The position numbers were made by a program, and so were the translations under genes. The notes below the pieces were generated by a model. The model saw only the letters and a program-made list of their open reading frames with translations. It had not been told where the DNA came from and did no database searches. This document shows, in pieces, positions 3,517-14,740 of a stretch of 64,000 nt of DNA. Origin of the DNA: Sulfobacillus thermotolerans (GTDB taxonomy: Bacteria; Bacillota; Sulfobacillia; Sulfobacillales; Sulfobacillaceae); NCBI GenBank assembly GCA_002951815.1, contig CP019454.1, forward strand, positions 2,418,001 through 2,482,000, read 5' to 3'. The first letter of the stretch is position 1. Each line of letters opens with the position of its first letter.

Positions 3517-4803
3517 TTACATGGCGGTTTCGGTGGCAGACACAGGCCGAGAGCGATATTGGGCTCCCAAAATGAGGAGGCCGCCTAATACAAGGAGGGT
3601 GGTCATCAGCCCGAGTCCGGCCAGCATGCTATTGTGGCTGATGGTCATCAAGTAGCCGACCAGAAAGGGGCCGAGAAATCCTCCCAAATTGCCTAAGCCA
3701 TTAATGAGACCCATGGAGGATCCTAATGCGGCGGGACCGACCATGAGGGGGGGAAGCGTCCAAAATACACCAAGAAAAGCCATGACTCCCGCTTCGGTGA
3801 GGGATAACAAAATCATCGATAGGGCAGGACTTGCGGTGCCAACGAGGGCGGAGAGTAATAGAGAGACGCCAGCGACAATTAAGGGGATGGCAATATGCCA
3901 TTTGCGTTCACCCGTGCGGTCTGAGTGGCGGGAATTAAGCCATAACGCCAGCACAGCGGCAATGTAGGGCAGTGTGCTGAGCAAGCCCACGCCGATGGGG
4001 CCAAACGACGAAAGGTGCTGTACGATCGTTGGCATCCATAACGTCACCCCATAGAGTCCAGTGACGGCCAAAAAATACACGGCGACTAAGAGCCACACTT
4101 GTTTATTCGTAAAGGCCTGCCGCCAATCATTCGCCAGCGGCACTGTTCGTTGGGCATCTTCGGCAAACTTTCTTTCTAAATACGCTCGTTCTTCAGAGCT
4201 TAGCCATTTTGCGGTCGCAGGCGAGTCGTCAATGAATATCCACCATACCACGGCCCAAATGAGAGCCGGCAATCCTTCGAGATAGAAGAGCCAGCGCCAT
4301 GAGAGATGGGCCAAAATCAAGCCAGCGATCGGGGACATAATAATGGCGGCCACCGGTAAGCAAAACATCCAATAAGAATTCGCTCGAGCTCGTTCATCAA
4401 ACGGAAACCATTTGGCCAAGAGAGCTAACGTGGCGGGCCATACGCCGCCTTCGGCCACCCCCAATAAAAACCGTACCGTTAATAGCTCGGGTACATTTTG
4501 TACGGCTCCGGTGAGCATGGCAAAGATAGCCCAAAATATGAGCGACAACGTGATAAATTTCTTAGCACTCCAATTGACGCCCCAATGGCCGCCCGGAATC
4601 TGAAGAAATAAGTAACCGAAGAAGAAGATACCGCCGGCCAGACCGGCCATGGTGGCGTTGGTACTCAGGGTTTTTTCCATGCCGCTGAAACCGAACCCAA
4701 TGTTAATGCGGTCCATAAACCCAATCGTATACATAAGAAATGCCACGGGAATAATCCGTGTCCAGCGCTTGTGCCCGGTGGGGCGATCGTCAACTACAGT
4801 CAA
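3517..4803 (-). CDS. MFS transporter, anion:cation symporter type
   Basis: Twelve-helix major facilitator of 428 residues. The first-helix signature GFMDRINIGFGFSGM, the long amphipathic linker after helix 6 (SSEERAYLERKFAEDAQ) and the overall length match the ACS family (phthalate, hexuronate and related organic anion carriers). The start is assigned to a TTG (complement of 4801-4803) because a perfect AAGGAGG lies seven bases upstream (complement 4811-4817); the longer open frame to 4941 begins with a non-family stretch. It is monocistronic and convergent with cbiA. An inverted repeat upstream (4955-4993) is a possible operator. Substrate unknown; an organic acid is likely from the family. 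Confidence 0.88.
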   Translation of the reverse strand: MTVVDDRPTGHKRWTRIIPVAFLMYTIGFMDRINIGFGFSGMEKTLSTNATMAGLAGGIFFFGYLFLQIPGGHWGVNWSAKKFITLSLIFWAIFAMLTGAVQNVPELLTVRFLLGVAEGGVWPATLALLAKWFPFDERARANSYWMFCLPVAAIIMSPIAGLILAHLSWRWLFYLEGLPALIWAVVWWIFIDDSPATAKWLSSEERAYLERKFAEDAQRTVPLANDWRQAFTNKQVWLLVAVYFLAVTGLYGVTLWMPTIVQHLSSFGPIGVGLLSTLPYIAAVLALWLNSRHSDRTGERKWHIAIPLIVAGVSLLLSALVGTASPALSMILLSLTEAGVMAFLGVFWTLPPLMVGPAALGSSMGLINGLGNLGGFLGPFLVGYLMTISHNSMLAGLGLMTTLLVLGGLLILGAQYRSRPVSATETAM

Positions 4804-5160
4804 TGGGATCCCTCCTTGGGGTCTGACCTTGCGAAGCATAGCGTTCTGCGCAATCTTTTTCGAATGAAAAGAAATAGAATCGATCAAAAATGCCGCGAAA
4901 TAAAGCATTGGAAGATAGGAGACGGGGGTTATATGTTTCAAGAATCTCCAGATTAAAGGTAAATATTTTCCTTACATTGTAATCTTTACCTTTTTGCAGT
5001 GTATCAGATTTAACAGAAGAAGCCAACCATTCGCTATTCACTGACCGGGGAAAGTTGATGGCGCGAGGGAGGAAGTGACACCCACCGACGAGCGCGTGTG
5101 ATACCATAGGCATATCACAATAGGACGCACGAGAAAATCGCTTGGACGAGGTGAGCGCGT
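4804..5160. other. divergent intergenic region between the MFS gene and the GH57 operon
   Basis: About 357 bp with no credible gene. It holds the MFS ribosome-binding site (4811-4817), the 9-bp inverted repeat at 4955-4993, a short inverted repeat (GTGATA 5098-5103 / TATCAC 5113-5118) upstream of the glucan operon, and the GAGGTGA Shine-Dalgarno of the GH57 gene at 5148-5154. Confidence 0.6.
4955..4993. promoter_or_regulatory. inverted repeat, possible operator of the MFS gene
   Basis: AAAGGTAAA (4955-4963) and TTTACCTTT (4985-4993) are perfect reverse complements with repeat starts 30 bp apart, about three helical turns. A minus-strand TACAAT (complement 4976-4981) lies between the arms, so a bound dimer could cover the promoter. 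Operator role is inferred from geometry only. Confidence 0.45.
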
Positions 5161-5163
5161 ATT
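5148..5163 (+). promoter_or_regulatory. ribosome-binding site with ATT initiation codon
   Basis: GAGGTGA (5148-5154), a 6-nt spacer, then ATT (5161-5163) where homologues would carry the initiator Met. No ATG, GTG or TTG exists in this frame between the stop at 5152 and the conserved HGHFYQPP segment. A GTG at 5151 reads in another frame and stops after four codons. Confidence 0.65.
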
Positions 5164-7575
5164 AATCGTTTTATCACCATTCATGGTCATTTTTATCAAC
5201 CTCCACGGGAGAATCCGTGGTTGGAAAGTGTCGAGCCTGAAGCGACGGCCTCTCCGTTTCATGATTGGAACCAACGAATTACTGCAGAGTGCTACGCTCC
5301 CAATGCTCACGCACGACTGTTAGATGCTCAAGGCTACTTGCGCGCCCTCTCGAATAATTATGCCCGCATGAGTTTTAATTTCGGCCCTACGTTATTAGAC
5401 TGGCTCGAACGCTATGACGTCGAGACCTACCGAGCTATCTTGCAAGCGGACCGCATTAGCCAAAATCGGTATCACGGACACGGTTCGGCCATGGCTCAAG
5501 TCTATAATCACATCATTATGCCCTTGGCGTCCGGGCGGGATAAAGAAACAGAAATTCGCTGGGGCATCCATGATTTTGTTCACCGCTTTGGTCGCAATCC
5601 CGAAGGAATGTGGCTGGCCGAAACGGCGGTCGATTATGAAACTCTTGAATTATTAGCCGCCCATGGCATTCTCTTTACGGTGTTAAGTCCCCAACAGGTG
5701 GAACGCATTAGGGACCCTAAGACCATGCAGTGGACTGATGTATCGTCGGAGATGCTCGACACGACCCGTCCTTACCGTATTCGTCTGGCTTCGAACCGTG
5801 CGATTACAGTATTTTTTTATCACGCCCCGTTATCGCGAGCCGTCGCGTTTGAGGGGTTACTCAATAACGGAGCAGATTTCGCGGCGCGTTTAGCCAGCGG
5901 ATTTACACGGGGCGATGACGATGGACAGATCGTGAATATCGCCACAGACGGGGAGACGTACGGGCATCATCATCGCTTTGGAGAAATGGCTTTAGCCTAT
6001 GCATTAGAGGCGATTGAGCACAGCCCTGATGTGTGTCTGACCAATTATGGGGAGTACTTAGCGGGGCATCCGGCCGAGTGGGAAGCTGACATCCGCGAAA
6101 ATACCTCATGGAGTTGTGCTCACGGGATTGAACGGTGGCGAAGCGATTGCGGCTGTCACACGGGTTTGCACCCAAAGTGGAATCAACAGTGGCGACAACC
6201 CTTGCGTGACGCGATGGACGGCCTGCGAGACGCGGTGGTGCCATTGATAGACAATGCCGGACGGCAGTGGTTTAAAGATCCATGGGCAGCGCGCAATGAC
6301 TATATTGAGGTGCTATTATCGCGCGATGAGACGCATCGGCAAACGTTTTTGCATCAACACCAAGCCATGGCATTGTCGGAAGTAGAACGTGTGCAGGCGT
6401 TGGCCTTGATGGAACTATGCCGACACATGCTATTGATGTATACCAGTTGTGGCTGGTTTTTCGATGACATTGCCGGAATTGAAGCGGTGCAAGTGATGAA
6501 ATATGCGGCCCGTGCCATCGAACTGACTAACGAGGTTTTTGGGATCAATCTGACGGCATCGTTTACCGCGCGATTGGCGCAGGCCGTGGCCAATGAGACC
6601 GGCGATAGCGGGCGGCGCATCTTCGAAGAGCACGTGCTGCCTAAACAAATTGACCTTGCTCGCGTGGCCGTACATTTTAGCCTAATTCATGTCATGTCAG
6701 AAGATGACAGGTCGGGGCCGGAAACCATTTATTGTTACCATGTATGGCAGCACCATGTCCGGATATGGCGTTCCGGAGCGATCGTGTTAAAGATAGGACG
6801 GGTGCGCGTAAAGTCGCAGCTAACCCTAGCCTCCCAGACGTTCGTGTTCGGAGCGCTGCACTTAGGCGATCACAACGTCTCCGCCGGAGTGCGCGCGGAC
6901 ATGGCCGATGACGTTGTAACGGCTATGGAGGCTCAATTGGGTCATGCCTTTGACGCCGCAGAATTTCCTGAGGTTCTGCGCCTCTTAGACCAATGGCTGC
7001 AAGGGCGCACGTATTCTTTGCGCCATTTATTTCGCGATGAACAAGAAGCGGTCATGAAGCATTGGGTAAAACAGGCCTTATTCCCAACAATTGAAGACAA
7101 TCGCCAGCACTATGAACGTCATGTGCCGTTGATGCGGTTTCTGAAAGAAATTGAGGAGCCGATTCCCCAGACGTTTTATGACGTGGCAGCCGTCGCCATT
7201 CGTGCCAACCTTGAGCAGGCGTTAAGCCAGGACCCAGTGCGTTTTGACATCATTAAACGGTGGATCCAAGAGGCCAAAGAGTGGCAAATTTGGCGCGAAG
7301 GCGAAGAGGTCTTGGATTGGGTGACCCGCCTTATAGAGCGACTCACGCGCACGGTGCAGGTGTACGCCGAGGACATCAAAGCGCTGGAGGACTTGGCGCA
7401 AGGTGTGCGGCTCGCGTATGATTTGCCCATGACTGTAGACTTACGGTTTGCGCAAATGGCCGTGTTTCAGCTCCATCAAGAGGCTAAAACATGGCACCCA
7501 GCCCTATGGCACGAACGGATGACGGAGTTGGAAAAATTGCTCATGATTCATGCGGACCCGCAGCATATAGATTAG
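5161..7575 (+). CDS. GH57 glycoside hydrolase with DUF3536-type C-terminal region
   Basis: Retaining alpha-glucan-active GH57 family protein of about 804 residues if it starts at ATT 5161. From that codon the protein begins INRFITIHGHFYQPPREN, which carries GH57 conserved region 1 (His8, His10, Gln13). The only conventional in-frame start, TTG 5221, would delete it. A GAGGTGA Shine-Dalgarno ends 6 nt before the ATT, and a stop codon closes the frame at 5152. The likely nucleophile is Glu154 in MWLAETAVDYE; the acid/base is Asp263 in ATDGETYGHHH. The C-terminal half matches the DUF3536 domain seen in long GH57 proteins. It heads the GlgE operon (20-bp gap to glgE), suggesting a role in trimming or remodelling alpha-glucan. 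Substrate specificity is unknown. Confidence 0.88.
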   Translation: MNRFITIHGHFYQPPRENPWLESVEPEATASPFHDWNQRITAECYAPNAHARLLDAQGYLRALSNNYARMSFNFGPTLLDWLERYDVETYRAILQADRISQNRYHGHGSAMAQVYNHIIMPLASGRDKETEIRWGIHDFVHRFGRNPEGMWLAETAVDYETLELLAAHGILFTVLSPQQVERIRDPKTMQWTDVSSEMLDTTRPYRIRLASNRAITVFFYHAPLSRAVAFEGLLNNGADFAARLASGFTRGDDDGQIVNIATDGETYGHHHRFGEMALAYALEAIEHSPDVCLTNYGEYLAGHPAEWEADIRENTSWSCAHGIERWRSDCGCHTGLHPKWNQQWRQPLRDAMDGLRDAVVPLIDNAGRQWFKDPWAARNDYIEVLLSRDETHRQTFLHQHQAMALSEVERVQALALMELCRHMLLMYTSCGWFFDDIAGIEAVQVMKYAARAIELTNEVFGINLTASFTARLAQAVANETGDSGRRIFEEHVLPKQIDLARVAVHFSLIHVMSEDDRSGPETIYCYHVWQHHVRIWRSGAIVLKIGRVRVKSQLTLASQTFVFGALHLGDHNVSAGVRADMADDVVTAMEAQLGHAFDAAEFPEVLRLLDQWLQGRTYSLRHLFRDEQEAVMKHWVKQALFPTIEDNRQHYERHVPLMRFLKEIEEPIPQTFYDVAAVAIRANLEQALSQDPVRFDIIKRWIQEAKEWQIWREGEEVLDWVTRLIERLTRTVQVYAEDIKALEDLAQGVRLAYDLPMTVDLRFAQMAVFQLHQEAKTWHPALWHERMTELEKLLMIHADPQHID

Positions 7576-7595: not shown

Positions 7596-9563
7596 ATGGA
7601 GATGAAGCGGCCGGCTCGGGTGCTCGTTTTGAACGTCAGCCCCAGTGTGGATTGCGGACGCTTTCCGATTAAGCGCATTGTCCATGATACGGTAACCGTA
7701 TCAGCGGATTTGGTGGCGGACGGTCATGATGTGGTACGCGGACGTCTTGCTTACCGGGTAAGGCCTGATGGACTATGGCAGTTTGTTCCCCTTGCGCATC
7801 AGGGGAACGACCGGTACCAAGGCACATTTAAGACCACGACCGTCGGTGTCTATGAATATCGCGTGGAAGGTTATATTGATGCCTATGCGACGTGGCGGGA
7901 GCGCTTTGAGAAAAAGCGGGCTATCAACCAAGACCTTCCGCGGGAACTGGCACAATTGGCGCAGATTATCGCCCAGCATCTTGCCATGGCATCGTCTTTG
8001 CCCGAGGATGTTCGAATTCAGCTGGCTCAGGTGCAACAACAGTTGGAATCACTGGATGTCGAAGCCGCTGCCGATCTTGCCACATCGAAGGTATTGCAAG
8101 ACCTCATGCTTAAGGCGCAAGATGATCAAGATGTGGGACGCTCGGAGATTTTCTTAGTGCGCGTCGACCGGCCGCGGGCCCTTTTTGGCGCGTGGTACGA
8201 ATTCTTTCCGCGTTCGTGCGCGCGGGAGGGGAGCCGGCACGGGACCTTTGCCGAGAGCGAGCCGTTTTTGGAATATGTCGCGGGACTTGGGTTTGATGTT
8301 GTCTATCTGCCCCCCATTCACCCGATTGGGACGATTCATCGTAAGGGAGTCAATAACCACACCACGGCAAAGGCATCGGACCCCGGCAGTCCTTGGGCTA
8401 TTGGAAGTGCTCAAGGCGGACATCTAGCGATTGAACCGTCCTTAGGAACTCTTGCGGATTTTGATCATTTCCACCAGAGCGTACAGCAGCTCGGCATGGA
8501 ATTGGCGATGGACATCACATTCCAGTGCGCGCCGGATCATCCCTGGGTGCAAGAACATCCCGAGTGGTTTAGCCATTTTCCCGATGGAAGCATACAATAT
8601 GCAGAAAATCCTCCCAAAAAGTATGAAGATGTATACCCCTTAAATTTTGACACGCCGGCGTGGCAAGCCTTGTGGGAAGCTTTAAAGGATGTCGTAAAAT
8701 TTTGGGCGGACCGCGGAGTGCGTATCTTTCGTGTCGATAATCCCCACACCAAACCCTTGGCGTTTTGGGAGTGGCTGATTGGACAAATTCAAGCGCAATA
8801 TCCGGATGCCATATTTTTATCGGAGGCGTTTACGCGGCCCAAATTAATGTATGCTCTATCCAAAGCCGGATTTAGTCAATCGTATACCTATTTTGCATGG
8901 CGCAATACACCGGCGGATTTGAGGCAATATTTAATGGAATTGACGCGCACCGAGGTCAAGGAATTTTTTCGTCCCAATTTCTGGCCAAATACCCCGGACA
9001 TTTTGCCTGAATTTTTACAGACACCCAACGTCACAGCGTTCGCTATCCGGTTGATTCTCGCCGCCACTTTAGCTGCGAGCTATGGGATTTATGGGCCAGC
9101 TTATGAACTGTTGGAATCGAGACCTGTACGGCCAGGAAGCGAAGAATATGATCATTCCGAGAAATATGAAATCCGGCACTGGGACCTTAGCCAGACACCT
9201 AATCTCCAGCACTTAATTCGGCAGGTGAATGCGATTCGTCACCAAGAGGCAGCCTTGCATAACAATCATTCCTTAGAATTTCATGGTTGTGACAATCCTA
9301 TGCTGCTGGTCTACAGCAAACAAAGCCAAGTAGATGGCCGTGTATTGTTGATGGTGGTCAATACCGACCCAGTTTATACACAATCGGGTTGGACGGCGTT
9401 GAATATGCAGATTTTAGGGATGGCGGATGATGCCGTCTATATCGTTCACGATTTATTAACGGATGCGCGCTATGAATGGCGGGGACCTTATAATTACGTG
9501 GAACTTCGTCCAGATAGTTATAATGCGCATATTTTTCGGATTGAGGCCAAAGAGGGGATATAA
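7596..9563 (+). CDS. glgE: alpha-1,4-glucan:maltose-1-phosphate maltosyltransferase
   Basis: Transfers maltose from maltose-1-phosphate to the non-reducing end of alpha-1,4-glucans (GH13_3); cytosolic. The 655-residue length is typical. The N-terminal domain shows the GlgE-type DCGRFPIKR and ADGHDVVRG segments; the barrel contains [13 protein letters not shown], the nucleophile Asp (about 380) in [10 protein letters not shown] and the acid/base Glu (about 410) in LSEAFTRPK. The ATG at 7596 has AAAGGGGAG six bases upstream; a longer frame from 7491 lies inside the GH57 gene. Second gene of the glucan operon; its stop codon overlaps the next start (TAATG). The adjacent treS-mak supplies maltose-1-phosphate, so pathway context agrees fully. 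Confidence 0.96.
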
Positions 9564-12500
9564 TGCCACAAGAGATGATACATGTCGACCGTGCGGACTG
9601 GTACAAAGATGCGATTATTTACGAGTTACATGTGCGCACATTTTTTGATAGCAATGGAGATGGGATTGGAGACTTTGTGGGATTAACCGAAAAGCTTAGT
9701 TACTTGGCGGATTTGGGAGTCACCGCATTATGGCTGCTGCCCTTTTATCCATCGCCTTTAAAAGATGACGGTTATGACATTGCGGACTACATGAATATTC
9801 ATCCGGATTACGGTACCTTACGGGATTTCCGCCGATTTCTGCGAGCTGCCCATGATCTGGGACTGAAAGTAATTACCGAGCTGGTCGTGAATCACACCTC
9901 CGATCAGCACCCCTGGTTTCAACGCGCCCGCCGAGCGCCAGCCAATAGTCGTTACCGTAATTACTACGTATGGAGCGACACCCCAGACAAATATGCTGAT
10001 GCTCGCATTATTTTTCAAGATTTTGAACGATCCAATTGGACCTATGATGATGTGGCCGATGCGTATTATTGGCACCGCTTTTATTCCCATCAGCCCGATC
10101 TTAATTTCAACAATCCCGTCGTCAAGCGCGAGGTCTTCAAGATCCTCGACTTTTGGCTGGATATGGGCGTTGATGGCTTGCGATTGGATGCGGTACCGTA
10201 TTTGTACGAGCGTGAGGGGACCAATTGTGAAAATCTGCCCGAAACCCATCAATTCTTGCGGGAGCTTCGGGCCCACATTGACGAAAAATACCCCTCACGG
10301 ATGCTCTTGGCTGAAGCCAATCAGTGGCCAGAAGATGCGGCCTTGTATTTTGGCAACGGGGATGAATGTCACATGGCGTTTCATTTTCCGTTGATGCCGC
10401 GCATGTTTATGGCCTTATACATGGAAGATCGCTATCCGATTATGGACATCTTGGAGCATACGCCCGCGATTCCCGAATCGGCACAATGGGCCATCTTTTT
10501 GCGCAATCATGACGAGCTGACCTTGGAGATGGTGACTGACGAGGAACGCGATTATATGTACCGGGTCTATGGTAAAGAACCACAGTTTCGCATTAATGTC
10601 GGCATTCGCCGGCGGCTGGCCCCGCTTTTGGGCAATAATCGCCGCCGCATGGAACTGATGAATGCATTGCTTATGACCTTGCCAGGTACACCCGTGTTGT
10701 ATTATGGCAATGAAATAGGCATGGGCGACAATGTCTATCTTGGAGACCGGGACGGCGTGCGCACCCCGTTTCAGTGGAGTCCAGACCGCAATGCCGGATT
10801 TTCTCGCGCCAACCCTCAGCGGCTGTGCCTTCCCGTCATTGTCGACCCTGAATACCATTATGAATCGGTCAACGTCGAAGCGCAGCAAAACAATCCTTCT
10901 AGCTTCTTGTGGTGGATGCGCCGCATTATTGCTTTGAGAAAATCTTCAAATGCGTTTGGGCGGGGTGCTTTGCGCTTTTTGGTCACGGATAATCCCAAAG
11001 TGTTGGCCTTTGTACGTGAGTATGACTCTGAGCGCATTATGGTGGTGGCCAATCTTTCGCGCTTTGTTCAAGCGGTCACCATCGACACGGCGGATATGAT
11101 CGGGCAAAGTGTGGCGGAAATGTTCTCCCATTCGACGTTCCCACCGATTTCGCATGAGAGCACGGTTTACACGTTAGGGCCTCACGACTTTTATCTCTTT
11201 CGCCTCGAAGACCCGGTCCAGGAGTTGGCTGCGCCTGCTGGAATGCCAGGCCCTCTATCCGTCGCGATTAGCGATTTCGCGCAAATGCCACGGGTCTTAG
11301 ATGCCCTAACGGACTTCATGCCCGAGTATTTGCCTAGGCAACGGTGGTTCGCGGGCAAGGGATTGCGCATTATGCAAGTGGAGCATGAAGCGTGGATTCC
11401 GGTCGGTCAGCACGGGGGATTATGGATTATCCGGGTGCGCTATATGGGAGGGGGCGAGGAACGTTACGAGCTGCCCTTATGGTTGGAGTCTGGAGTGGCG
11501 GACGCGGCTCTTGGCCTCTTTTCATGGCACAATGAGACGTGGAGTGTGTTGGAAGGTACCGACTATCCCGCGTTTTGGCACGATTTGGGGCGCTATTGGA
11601 TTTATCCAGAGCGCTTAAGCAGCAAAGATTTCGAACGGAAAACCACCGGGGCCTGGCGCAACCGAGAACGTGGAGAGGCTCTGAATGAAGATCCGACCCC
11701 GCTGCATGCGGAACAAAGCAACACGTCAGTAGTGTTTGGGACGCGGTGGATGATGAAATTGTTTCGTCGTCTTGAAGATGGCATTAACCCGGACTGGGAA
11801 GTCGGGAAATTTCTGACGGATCATCATGGAGAACAGGTGGCTCCCAGGACATGGATGGGGTGGGAGTATCATCCGGGGACACATCAATACCAACTCGGTA
11901 TCTTGCAAGAATATGTCGTGAACCACGGGGATGCGTGGACCTACACCTTGGATCACCTGACGCGGTATTTTGAATTAGCGGCCGCACATACGGACACCGT
12001 GCAACCGGTCACGTGCCACAATTGGTGGACCGACCGCACTTGGGTGCCGAATGAAACGGTGCACGCGATGATGGGGGAGTTTATTGGCCAAGCAGCCCTC
12101 ATGGGCCGTCAGACAGCCGAAATGCATCGCCTGTTGGCCTCAGACGCCACCATCCCCGAATTTCGGCCTGAACCTTTTTCTGCGCTTGACCAACGCGCCA
12201 CCTACCAGTCCATGCGACAAACGGCCGACCGGACGTTAAGTGAACTTCAAGACCGTTTGCCGCACTTAGACGAAGTCTTAAGACCCTTAGCCGAAGCGGT
12301 TATCGCGCGGTGGGAGGGAATCGATACGCTTCTGCGCAAGGCCGCACGGCCCACGGTTCAAGGGGCAAAAATCCGCTGTCATGGTGACTATCATTTAGGG
12401 CAATTGCTGTACACTGGTGAAGCCTTCAAAGTGGTGGACTTTGAAGGAGAACCGCTGCTATCGTTAACCCAAAGGCGCATCAAACGCTCGCCGTTCAAGG

Positions 12501-12811
12501 ATGTGGCAGGAATGGTGCGCTCTTTCCATTATGCCGCTTTGACCCAGGCCCTCCGTCAAGAAGAGTTTGGGGTGGCCTTTGACACGTTGCGACCGTGGGC
12601 CATTGCGTGGTTTCAAGCAGCGACGGTACGCTTTTTGGACTCGTACCGAGCTAGTATGCCGGCACCCTTATTGCCCGAGTGGGGGACGGATTGGTTATCA
12701 GCATTTATTCTCGAAAAGGCCATTTATGAACTGCGCTATGAGTTGCGCAATCGTCCCGCCTGGACCCGTATTCCCATGGAAGGCATCTTAAGTCTCATTC
12801 CCCAAGAGTAA
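9563..12811 (+). CDS. treS: trehalose synthase - maltokinase fusion
   Basis: Bifunctional protein of 1082 residues. Residues 1 to about 560 form a GH13_16 trehalose synthase (trehalose/maltose isomerisation): [16 protein letters not shown], nucleophile Asp near 206 in [12 protein letters not shown], acid/base Glu near 250 in [10 protein letters not shown] and the [10 protein letters not shown] segment near 313. Residues about 590-1082 form a maltokinase (Mak/Pep2) with the kinase-like catalytic CHGDYHLGQ near 938 and the metal-binding DFEGEP near 958. The fusion converts trehalose-derived maltose to maltose-1-phosphate, the GlgE donor. Its ATG overlaps the glgE stop by 1 bp and glgB follows within about 30 bp. 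Such TreS-Mak fusions are known from other bacteria with the GlgE pathway. Confidence 0.95.
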
Positions 12812-12841
12812 GGCATGAAATTGGAAAGGAGACATGACGTG

Positions 12842-14740
12842 ATGCATAAAGACCATTTAGACGATGCAACGCTCTACTTATTCAACGAAGGGTCTGAGGC
12901 TCAACTCTATCGGCATTTTGGGGCGCAGCGGGTTGACCTCTTAACAGATGCCGTGCGATTTGCGGTATGGGCCCCCGCGGCCGCGTATGTGTCAGTTGTA
13001 GGGACGTTCAATGCGTGGGATCCGAAGCGCAATCCCTTGCAACCGGCCGGCGTGTCGGGCGTTCATGTTGGCACGGTCGAGGGCGTTCCCGTGGGCTCTT
13101 TATATAAATACCATATTGAAACGCCTTCTATGGGATTTTCGGGGGACAAAGCCGATCCCGTGGCTTTTGGCATGGAAATCCCGCCGAAAACCGCCTCGGT
13201 GGTCACCGATTTATCCTATACGTGGCATGATGCGGCGTGGTTGGCGCGTCGGCAATCGGGCGATTGGCGTGCGCAGCCGATGAGCATTTATGAAGTGCAT
13301 CTCGGATCGTGGCGTAAACATCAGGACCAAACATCGTTGAGCTATCAGGAGTTGGCCGATGAGCTTGTGGATTATGTGAAACGGACCGGGTTTACCCATG
13401 TTGAATTCATGCCCGTGATGGAACATCCTTACTATGGGTCATGGGGGTACCAAACGACAAGCTACTTTGCCCCATCTCGACGTTACGGCACACCGCAAGA
13501 CCTCATGTATTTAATTGACCGGTTACATCAAGCCGACATTGGGGTGTTATTGGATTGGGTGCCGTCTCATTTTGCTACGGACGATTTTGGATTAGGTTTG
13601 TTCGATGGCACCCATTTGTATGAGCATGCCGATCCACGGCAAGGCATTCATCCCCAGTGGCATAGCTATGTGTTCAACTATGGGCGCAATGAAGTGCGCA
13701 GCTTTTTAGTGTCGAGCGCCATGTTCTGGGTGGATATCTTTCACGCCGATGGGTTGCGCGTGGATGCGGTGAGCTCGATGCTTTATTTAAATTTTGGTCG
13801 CGAAGAGGGCCAATGGGTGCCCAACCGCTACGGTGGGTACGAAAATTTAGAGGCCATTGCCTTTTTGCGGCAAGTGACCCATGTGATTCATGAGACATTT
13901 CCCGGGGTTTTGATGATCGCGGAGGAGTCCACGGCGTGGCCGGGCGTTTCGCGGTCCGCCCAAGAGGGTGGATTAGGGTTTGATTTGAAGTGGGATATGG
14001 GATGGATGCACGATACGCTTGATTACATGGCCCTCGACCCAATTTACCGTCGCTATCACCATGATGCTTTGACATTTCGCCCCATGTACGCGCAAAGCGA
14101 GCGCTTCATCTTGCCCCTATCGCACGACGAGGTGGTGCACCAAAAAGGGTCGTTATTGACCAAAATGTCCGGAGACACATGGCAAAAGTTTGCCAACTTA
14201 CGTCTATTGTTGGCCTATCAGTATGCCGTACCCGGGAAAAAACTGCTGTTTATGGGGGGGGAATTTGGTCAATGGCGCGAATGGTCGCATGACCGCGAAA
14301 TTGACTGGTTTTTGCTCGGGCAGAGCAGTCATGCGGGGCTCTGGCAATTGGTGCAAGACTTGAATCATCGCTACCGAACCACTCCAGCTTGGTATCAGGG
14401 CGACCACGACAACGAGGGCTTTGCATGGTGCGATTTCGCGGATCGTGCGGCGAGTGTTTTAAGCTTCTTTCGCCGAGACCTTGAAGGGCGCTCGGTGTTG
14501 GCCGTGTTTAATTTCACGCCGGTTGTCCGCACCCATTACCGGTTGGGCGTACCTCACGAAGGCTTGTGGCACGAAGTGTTGAATACGGATGCGGCGTGCT
14601 ACGGAGGAAGCAATCAAGGCAATTTAGGCGGCGTTTGGGCCGAAGCCTTGCCGTGGGGAGGACAGGCCTGGTCGCTAGCCTTGACGCTGCCTCCTCTCGC
14701 GGCCGTATTTTTTGAGCCCCCTAGCGTTGAAAGGGATTAA
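12842..14740 (+). CDS. glgB: 1,4-alpha-glucan branching enzyme
   Basis: Introduces alpha-1,6 branches into glucan (GH13, cytosolic); about 632 residues. An N-terminal CBM48-type module (RFAVWAPAAAYVSVVGTFN) precedes the barrel with DWVPSHFATDD, the nucleophile Asp near 306 in DGLRVDAVSSMLY, the acid/base Glu near 361 in IAEESTAWPG and the SHDEVVHQKGS segment near 427. AAAGGAG (12825-12831) precedes adjacent GTG (12839) and ATG (12842) candidates; the ATG at 12815 has a poorer ribosome site. It is the last gene of the glucan operon. The 3' end overlaps the convergent ThyX-like gene by 20 bp, leaving no space for a separate terminator. Confidence 0.95.
   Translation: MHKDHLDDATLYLFNEGSEAQLYRHFGAQRVDLLTDAVRFAVWAPAAAYVSVVGTFNAWDPKRNPLQPAGVSGVHVGTVEGVPVGSLYKYHIETPSMGFSGDKADPVAFGMEIPPKTASVVTDLSYTWHDAAWLARRQSGDWRAQPMSIYEVHLGSWRKHQDQTSLSYQELADELVDYVKRTGFTHVEFMPVMEHPYYGSWGYQTTSYFAPSRRYGTPQDLMYLIDRLHQADIGVLLDWVPSHFATDDFGLGLFDGTHLYEHADPRQGIHPQWHSYVFNYGRNEVRSFLVSSAMFWVDIFHADGLRVDAVSSMLYLNFGREEGQWVPNRYGGYENLEAIAFLRQVTHVIHETFPGVLMIAEESTAWPGVSRSAQEGGLGFDLKWDMGWMHDTLDYMALDPIYRRYHHDALTFRPMYAQSERFILPLSHDEVVHQKGSLLTKMSGDTWQKFANLRLLLAYQYAVPGKKLLFMGGEFGQWREWSHDREIDWFLLGQSSHAGLWQLVQDLNHRYRTTPAWYQGDHDNEGFAWCDFADRAASVLSFFRRDLEGRSVLAVFNFTPVVRTHYRLGVPHEGLWHEVLNTDAACYGGSNQGNLGGVWAEALPWGGQAWSLALTLPPLAAVFFEPPSVERD

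Follow-up and report, generated by a model that had tools for sequence, protein, structure and literature searches.

The stretch of DNA analyzed here (64,000 nucleotides of Sulfobacillus thermotolerans, referred to as the window) contains an alpha-glucan gene cluster with the order GH57-glgE-treS/mak-glgB (Table 1). At the head of the cluster lies a gene whose 804-codon product contains both the GH57 catalytic domain and DUF3536, and which carries the motifs HGHFY (conserved region I) and ETYGHH (region IV). The HxHLP motif of GH57 glycogen branching enzymes is absent from conserved sequence region I (CSR-I), and HGHFY is found in its place, a form of the region that has been described for a DUF3536 GH57, PoGH57 of Pontibacter (PMC11206854). 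PoGH57 is likewise a GH57-DUF3536 protein with the HGHFY and ETYGHH motifs, and its GlgE-pathway locus has GlgE, TreS and GlgB neighbors as in Sulfobacillus; its probable activity is that of a 4-alpha-glucanotransferase or trimming enzyme (PMC11206854). We also searched a proteome paper on an S. thermotolerans strain for glucan terms and found none in its main text.

Between cobB and the GH57 gene, the window contains an MFS transporter gene (3517-4941) that we found at this location only in the genome studied here (G000) and in one other species (G005). The two MFS genes are 88% identical, though GH57 is only approximately 61% identical between the two genomes, and the gene looks as though it had been inserted or transferred at a later time. 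An element at window positions 5097-5119, TGTGATACCATA, is conserved ahead of GH57 in five species, also where the MFS gene lies in between. In the studied genome it forms TGTGATA-N9-TATCACA, and it is possibly a promoter or operator.

Table 1. Features of the GH57 locus, in window coordinates, and candidate AUH-start genes from the genus screen, in genome coordinates with the position in the sampled stretch in parentheses
Feature	Position	Strand	Evidence and remarks
Shine-Dalgarno sequence GAGGTGA	5148..5154	+	Duplex energy; RRGGTGA kept in 8/8 species
Out-of-frame mini-ORF GTG AGC GCG TAT TAA, rejected	5151..5165	+	Without SD of its own; length and stop vary by species
In-frame TGA closing the GH57 frame	5152..5154	+	Equal distance from AUN in 8/8 species
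ATT (AUU) start codon of GH57-DUF3536 gene	5161..5163	+	ATT 5, ATA 3, canonical 0 of 8 species
GH57-DUF3536 alpha-glucan enzyme	5161..7575	+	DUF3536 E 1.9e-96; Glyco_hydro_57 E 6e-18
HGHFYQPP, GH57 CSR-I	5182..5205	+	Would be missing if TTG 5221 were the start
TTG, first canonical start codon, rejected as start	5221..5223	+	Weaker SD (-7.4); start codon in no relative
glgE	7596..9563	+	Probable ATG start 7596 rather than 7491; own SD
treS-maltokinase fusion	9563..12811	+	Downstream of glgE
glgB, 1,4-alpha-glucan branching enzyme	12815..14740	+	Probable start ATG ~12842
SigH-like sigma factor	G000:C1:1164124-1164729 (L104:14124-14729)	minus	ATT 8/8; SD GGGAGGA/GGGGAGG
ComB-like 2-phosphosulfolactate phosphatase	G000:C1:2358603 (L112:8603)	plus	ATC 8/8; strong SD; behaves like GH57
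ccmB	G000:C1:1056189 (L167:6189)	plus	ATT/ATT/ATC/ATC in the four genomes with the gene; overlaps upstream stop
Ppx/GppA domain III HD protein, separate ORF	G000:C1:1166919 (L104:16913)	minus	Conserved ATC 8/8; overlaps upstream stop (ATCTTAR)

The frame of the GH57 gene is closed upstream by a TGA that falls within the Shine-Dalgarno (SD) sequence, three codons before ATT 5161, and only the codons GCG, CGT and ATT lie between this stop and the conserved core of the protein. From ATT 5161 the frame reads I/M-NRFITIHGHFYQPPREN, and the codons that follow ATT, from AAT CGT TTT through CAA CCT CCA, encode NRFITIHGHFYQPP. No canonical start occurs before codon 21, the first being TTG 5221, which is 20 codons inside the frame. 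Six bases (GCGCGT) separate ATT from GAGGTGA, which we take to pair perfectly with the usual 3' end of the 16S rRNA, and whose duplex energy of approximately -12 kcal/mol is the strongest among all candidate starts of the ORF. A preliminary description of the window had proposed this layout (GAGGTGA, six bases, ATT 5161, and a stop at 5152) and had assigned GH57 region 1 to the frame before TTG 5221. On re-reading, the bases match, and HGHFYQPP does lie in that part of the frame. As judged from sequence, no start other than ATT 5161 is plausible for the GH57-DUF3536 gene, a reading that we consider well supported.

We compared the start across eight Sulfobacillus species, a sample of few independent lineages in which two of the species are close. 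The GH57-DUF3536 gene is present in all eight, and the protein of the studied species is 53-62% identical to those of the seven others. At the homologous start the codon is ATT in five species and ATA in three, while ATG, GTG and TTG occur in none. The preliminary description had taken ATT for a real non-canonical AUU start that could lower or regulate GH57 relative to GlgE, and had pointed to the same position in related genomes as a check; its reading of the start is borne out by all seven of the other genus members, each of which has ATT or ATA there. The genus-wide extent of the site, the use of AUA and the occurrence of such starts in further Sulfobacillus genes go beyond that description. 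The layout RRGGTGA-N6-AUN is invariant in the eight species and the SD energy before the AUN codon ranges from -11 to -14 kcal/mol, while the DNA further upstream has diverged. In one species (G003), an extra Thr codon places ATA one codon further upstream with respect to the protein. Because four-fold sites are only 32% identical across species pairs (0.32), that is, silent sites are close to saturated, recent descent does not explain why ATG is absent.

GH57 is alone among seven syntenic genes in having its best SD mark AUU or AUA in all eight species. For the orthologs of the other six (PerM-like, SDR, cobB, glgE, treS-mak and glgB), each of which has canonical starts available, the best SD is not consistently on an AUH codon across species. 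In other genera of the family (L010-L014), the homologous gene has GTG or ATG at or beside the same residue, and in distant phyla the GH57-DUF3536 gene commonly starts with ATG. The GH57 relatives retrieved from the named genome collection were all distant. Among them, a GH57-DUF3536 homolog in an Omnitrophota MAG (L046, ~5001) has an apparent CTG start after GAGGTGAT.

For further starts of this kind, we screened 61 stretches (1.264 Mb, 1072 ORFs), representing 38% of the single-contig genome of 3,317,203 bp. The screen identified ORFs with an AUH or CUG codon behind a strong SD before the first canonical start, and candidates were then tested genus-wide. Because the screen covered 38% of the genome and misses any ORF that has a canonical start upstream by chance, the numbers given here are lower bounds. 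Raw hits were found at 13 of 330 AUH codons versus 112 of 6455 other codons (p = 0.0075), and most of them are noise. The gene for initiation factor IF3, infC, served as a positive control; it starts with ATC in six of the eight species and with ATT in the other two. Besides the ComB-like gene (Table 1), a SigH-like sigma factor, which at E<1e-50 is found in Sulfobacillus only, behaves like GH57. In other genera of the family, ComB has either GTG with an SD (g8, g10) or an apparent AUU (g11), so that its weak start is possibly older than the genus. Comparison across the genomes also makes ccmB a likely AUH-start gene, and the Ppx-domain-III HD protein a likely AUC-start gene. The HD ORF overlaps the upstream gene, and its ATC may be a true AUC start or else part of a frameshift fusion with that gene.

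Three other candidates failed the genus test: a patatin-like gene (L112:12558) has ATG at codon 4 in all species, and neither a PQQ-type gene (L178:19811) nor the protein at L109:7021 has a conserved AUH. Two more are lineage-specific or unclear, namely a PsiE-like gene (L189:12803, minus strand), with ATA in the studied genome and ATG in four relatives, and fmt (L184:9412, plus strand), with an apparent CTG in the studied genome and a GTG two codons later in most relatives. Thus, the genus test is able to say no. An odd initiator tRNA is still conceivable: the tRNAs of 60 sampled stretches showed nothing unusual, in a sample that contained no Met or initiator tRNA.

We think it fairly likely, from the pattern of conservation, that the AUU/AUA codon of GH57 is a throttled and probably IF3-sensitive initiation site that is rescued by a strong SD. 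The initiator fMet-tRNA would pair with AUU or AUA at the first two bases only, and the strong, correctly spaced SD would hold the 30S subunit on the weak codon. At the first two bases of the codon, IF3 accepts nothing but Watson-Crick pairs, and it excludes weak pairing at the third (PMC10158994). Because pairing would be limited to the first two bases and IF3 rejects weak third-base pairs, initiation on GH57 is expected to be well below the AUG level and sensitive to IF3. When preceded by an extended SD, the AUU and AUA starts of S. aureus reach roughly 10% of the output of AUG (PMC13009471). Streptomyces sigR likewise has an extended SD before its GTC start, which is subject to repression by IF3 and determines how much of the product is made relative to that of the next gene (PMC5472188).

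The comparison shows the position of the start, its conservation in the genus and the conserved SD geometry; beyond this, we infer that low GH57 output from AUU is likely and that control of the start by IF3 is plausible. The benefit would be a low GH57 dose, dependent on the state of translation, relative to GlgE, TreS-Mak and GlgB with their own canonical starts; in our view, an excess of a chain-trimming or chain-transferring enzyme would erode the polymer. When the ribosome-binding region was folded across species, no conserved structure was evident and the SD was often paired, so structure may also limit initiation.

A different possibility is that AUU/AUA is a real but weak start that is only tolerated: drift would have fixed it in the common ancestor, and it would neither play a part in regulation nor be tied to the level of IF3. 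The codon does switch between AUU and AUA in the manner of any ordinary Ile codon, and GH57 alone does not prove that a weak start has been selected for. However, a single base change would produce AUG, yet AUG is seen in none of the eight species at near-saturated silent sites, and the strong SD has been retained in every one of them. Other genes in the genus keep specific AUH starts as well: 3 of 5 AUH start columns are invariant versus 2 of 34 internal conserved Ile codons (Fisher p = 0.01), a small sample that includes the less certain HD gene (p = 0.047 without it). We consider drift alone an unlikely explanation and retain throttled initiation as the preferred one.

It is much less probable that translation begins upstream, at GTG 5151 or in an upstream ORF, and enters the GH57 frame by programmed frameshifting. 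A GTG is found 10 bases upstream, inside the SD, in all species, and in five of them the mini-ORF that it opens ends at a TAA overlapping ATTAA. This GTG lacks an SD of its own, however, and both features have an explanation, the GTG in the GGTGA sequence and the TAA in AUU followed by an Asn codon. In three species (G001, G003, G004) the GTG frame continues for dozens of out-of-frame codons, and no common slippery site or stop exists; with respect to upstream-ORF coupling, we found no upstream ORF conserved across the species of the genus.

That TTG 5221 is the true start, with the preceding 20 codons untranslated, is more doubtful still. As the first canonical start of the ORF, TTG 5221 might be chosen by an automatic annotator, but the 20 codons encode HGHFYQPP, which is conserved in all relatives, and the SD before TTG is weaker. 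The position is a start codon in no other species, and in four (G007, G006, G004 and G002) the first canonical start comes 53-77 codons after AUN, or 33-57 codons beyond the TTG 5221 position. Finally, the preliminary description had kept a strain mutation or base error from ATG at 5161 as its alternative; single-base errors are possible in the S. thermotolerans Kr1 genome, whose contigs were joined into the finished sequence by Sanger gap filling (PMC6803676), but AUU or AUA in all eight species, with ATG in none of the seven sister species, rules out sequencing error and leaves this alternative refuted and its probability negligible.

With throttled initiation as the preferred reading, GH57 is a further case of the known class of conserved near-cognate starts, and the genus-wide AUH set is the better lead. 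To our knowledge, only a few bacterial genes have a near-cognate start that is known to be conserved. Here such a start occurs in an alpha-glucan enzyme, and a simple cross-species test yields several more in Sulfobacillus. We suggest, as a tentative idea with the probabilities somewhat against it, that the genus-wide set of AUU/AUC/AUA starts (GH57, the SigH-like factor, the ComB-like protein, ccmB, the Ppx-domain-III HD protein, infC, and probably others) might form a translation regulon that responds to IF3 availability. If this were confirmed, a whole gene set would be tuned by start-codon strength, and the level of IF3 as a global regulator beyond infC would become directly testable. Near-cognate starts are not called by gene finders, so the N-termini of such proteins go unnoticed, as does a layer of dosage control.

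AUU starts are rare, and infC is the textbook case. Its AUU, AUC or AUA start is an AUH codon after a strong SD, as in GH57, and is conserved in Sulfobacillus too; infC regulates itself, whereas GH57 is a metabolic enzyme outside the translation machinery. In E. coli, pcnB, a different gene, likewise has an AUU start, described as translationally limiting (cited as ref. 73 in PMC13009471). The Staphylococcus genes cvfC1 (AUU) and ccpN (AUA) have conserved starts with an extended SD, like GH57, and cvfC1, too, heads an operon (PMC13009471). Ribosome profiling and reporter assays have been carried out on these starts, with output at about a tenth of that of AUG, and they differ from GH57 in gene and lineage. 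Streptomyces sigR uses GUC rather than AUU or AUA and is an experimentally proven case in a regulatory gene, in contrast to the metabolic GH57, whose start is supported by sequence comparison. Like GH57, however, sigR has a genus-wide near-cognate start behind an extended SD (AGGAGGTG), and this start sets the stoichiometry of the first gene of the operon against the next, a position that GH57 likewise occupies (PMC5472188).
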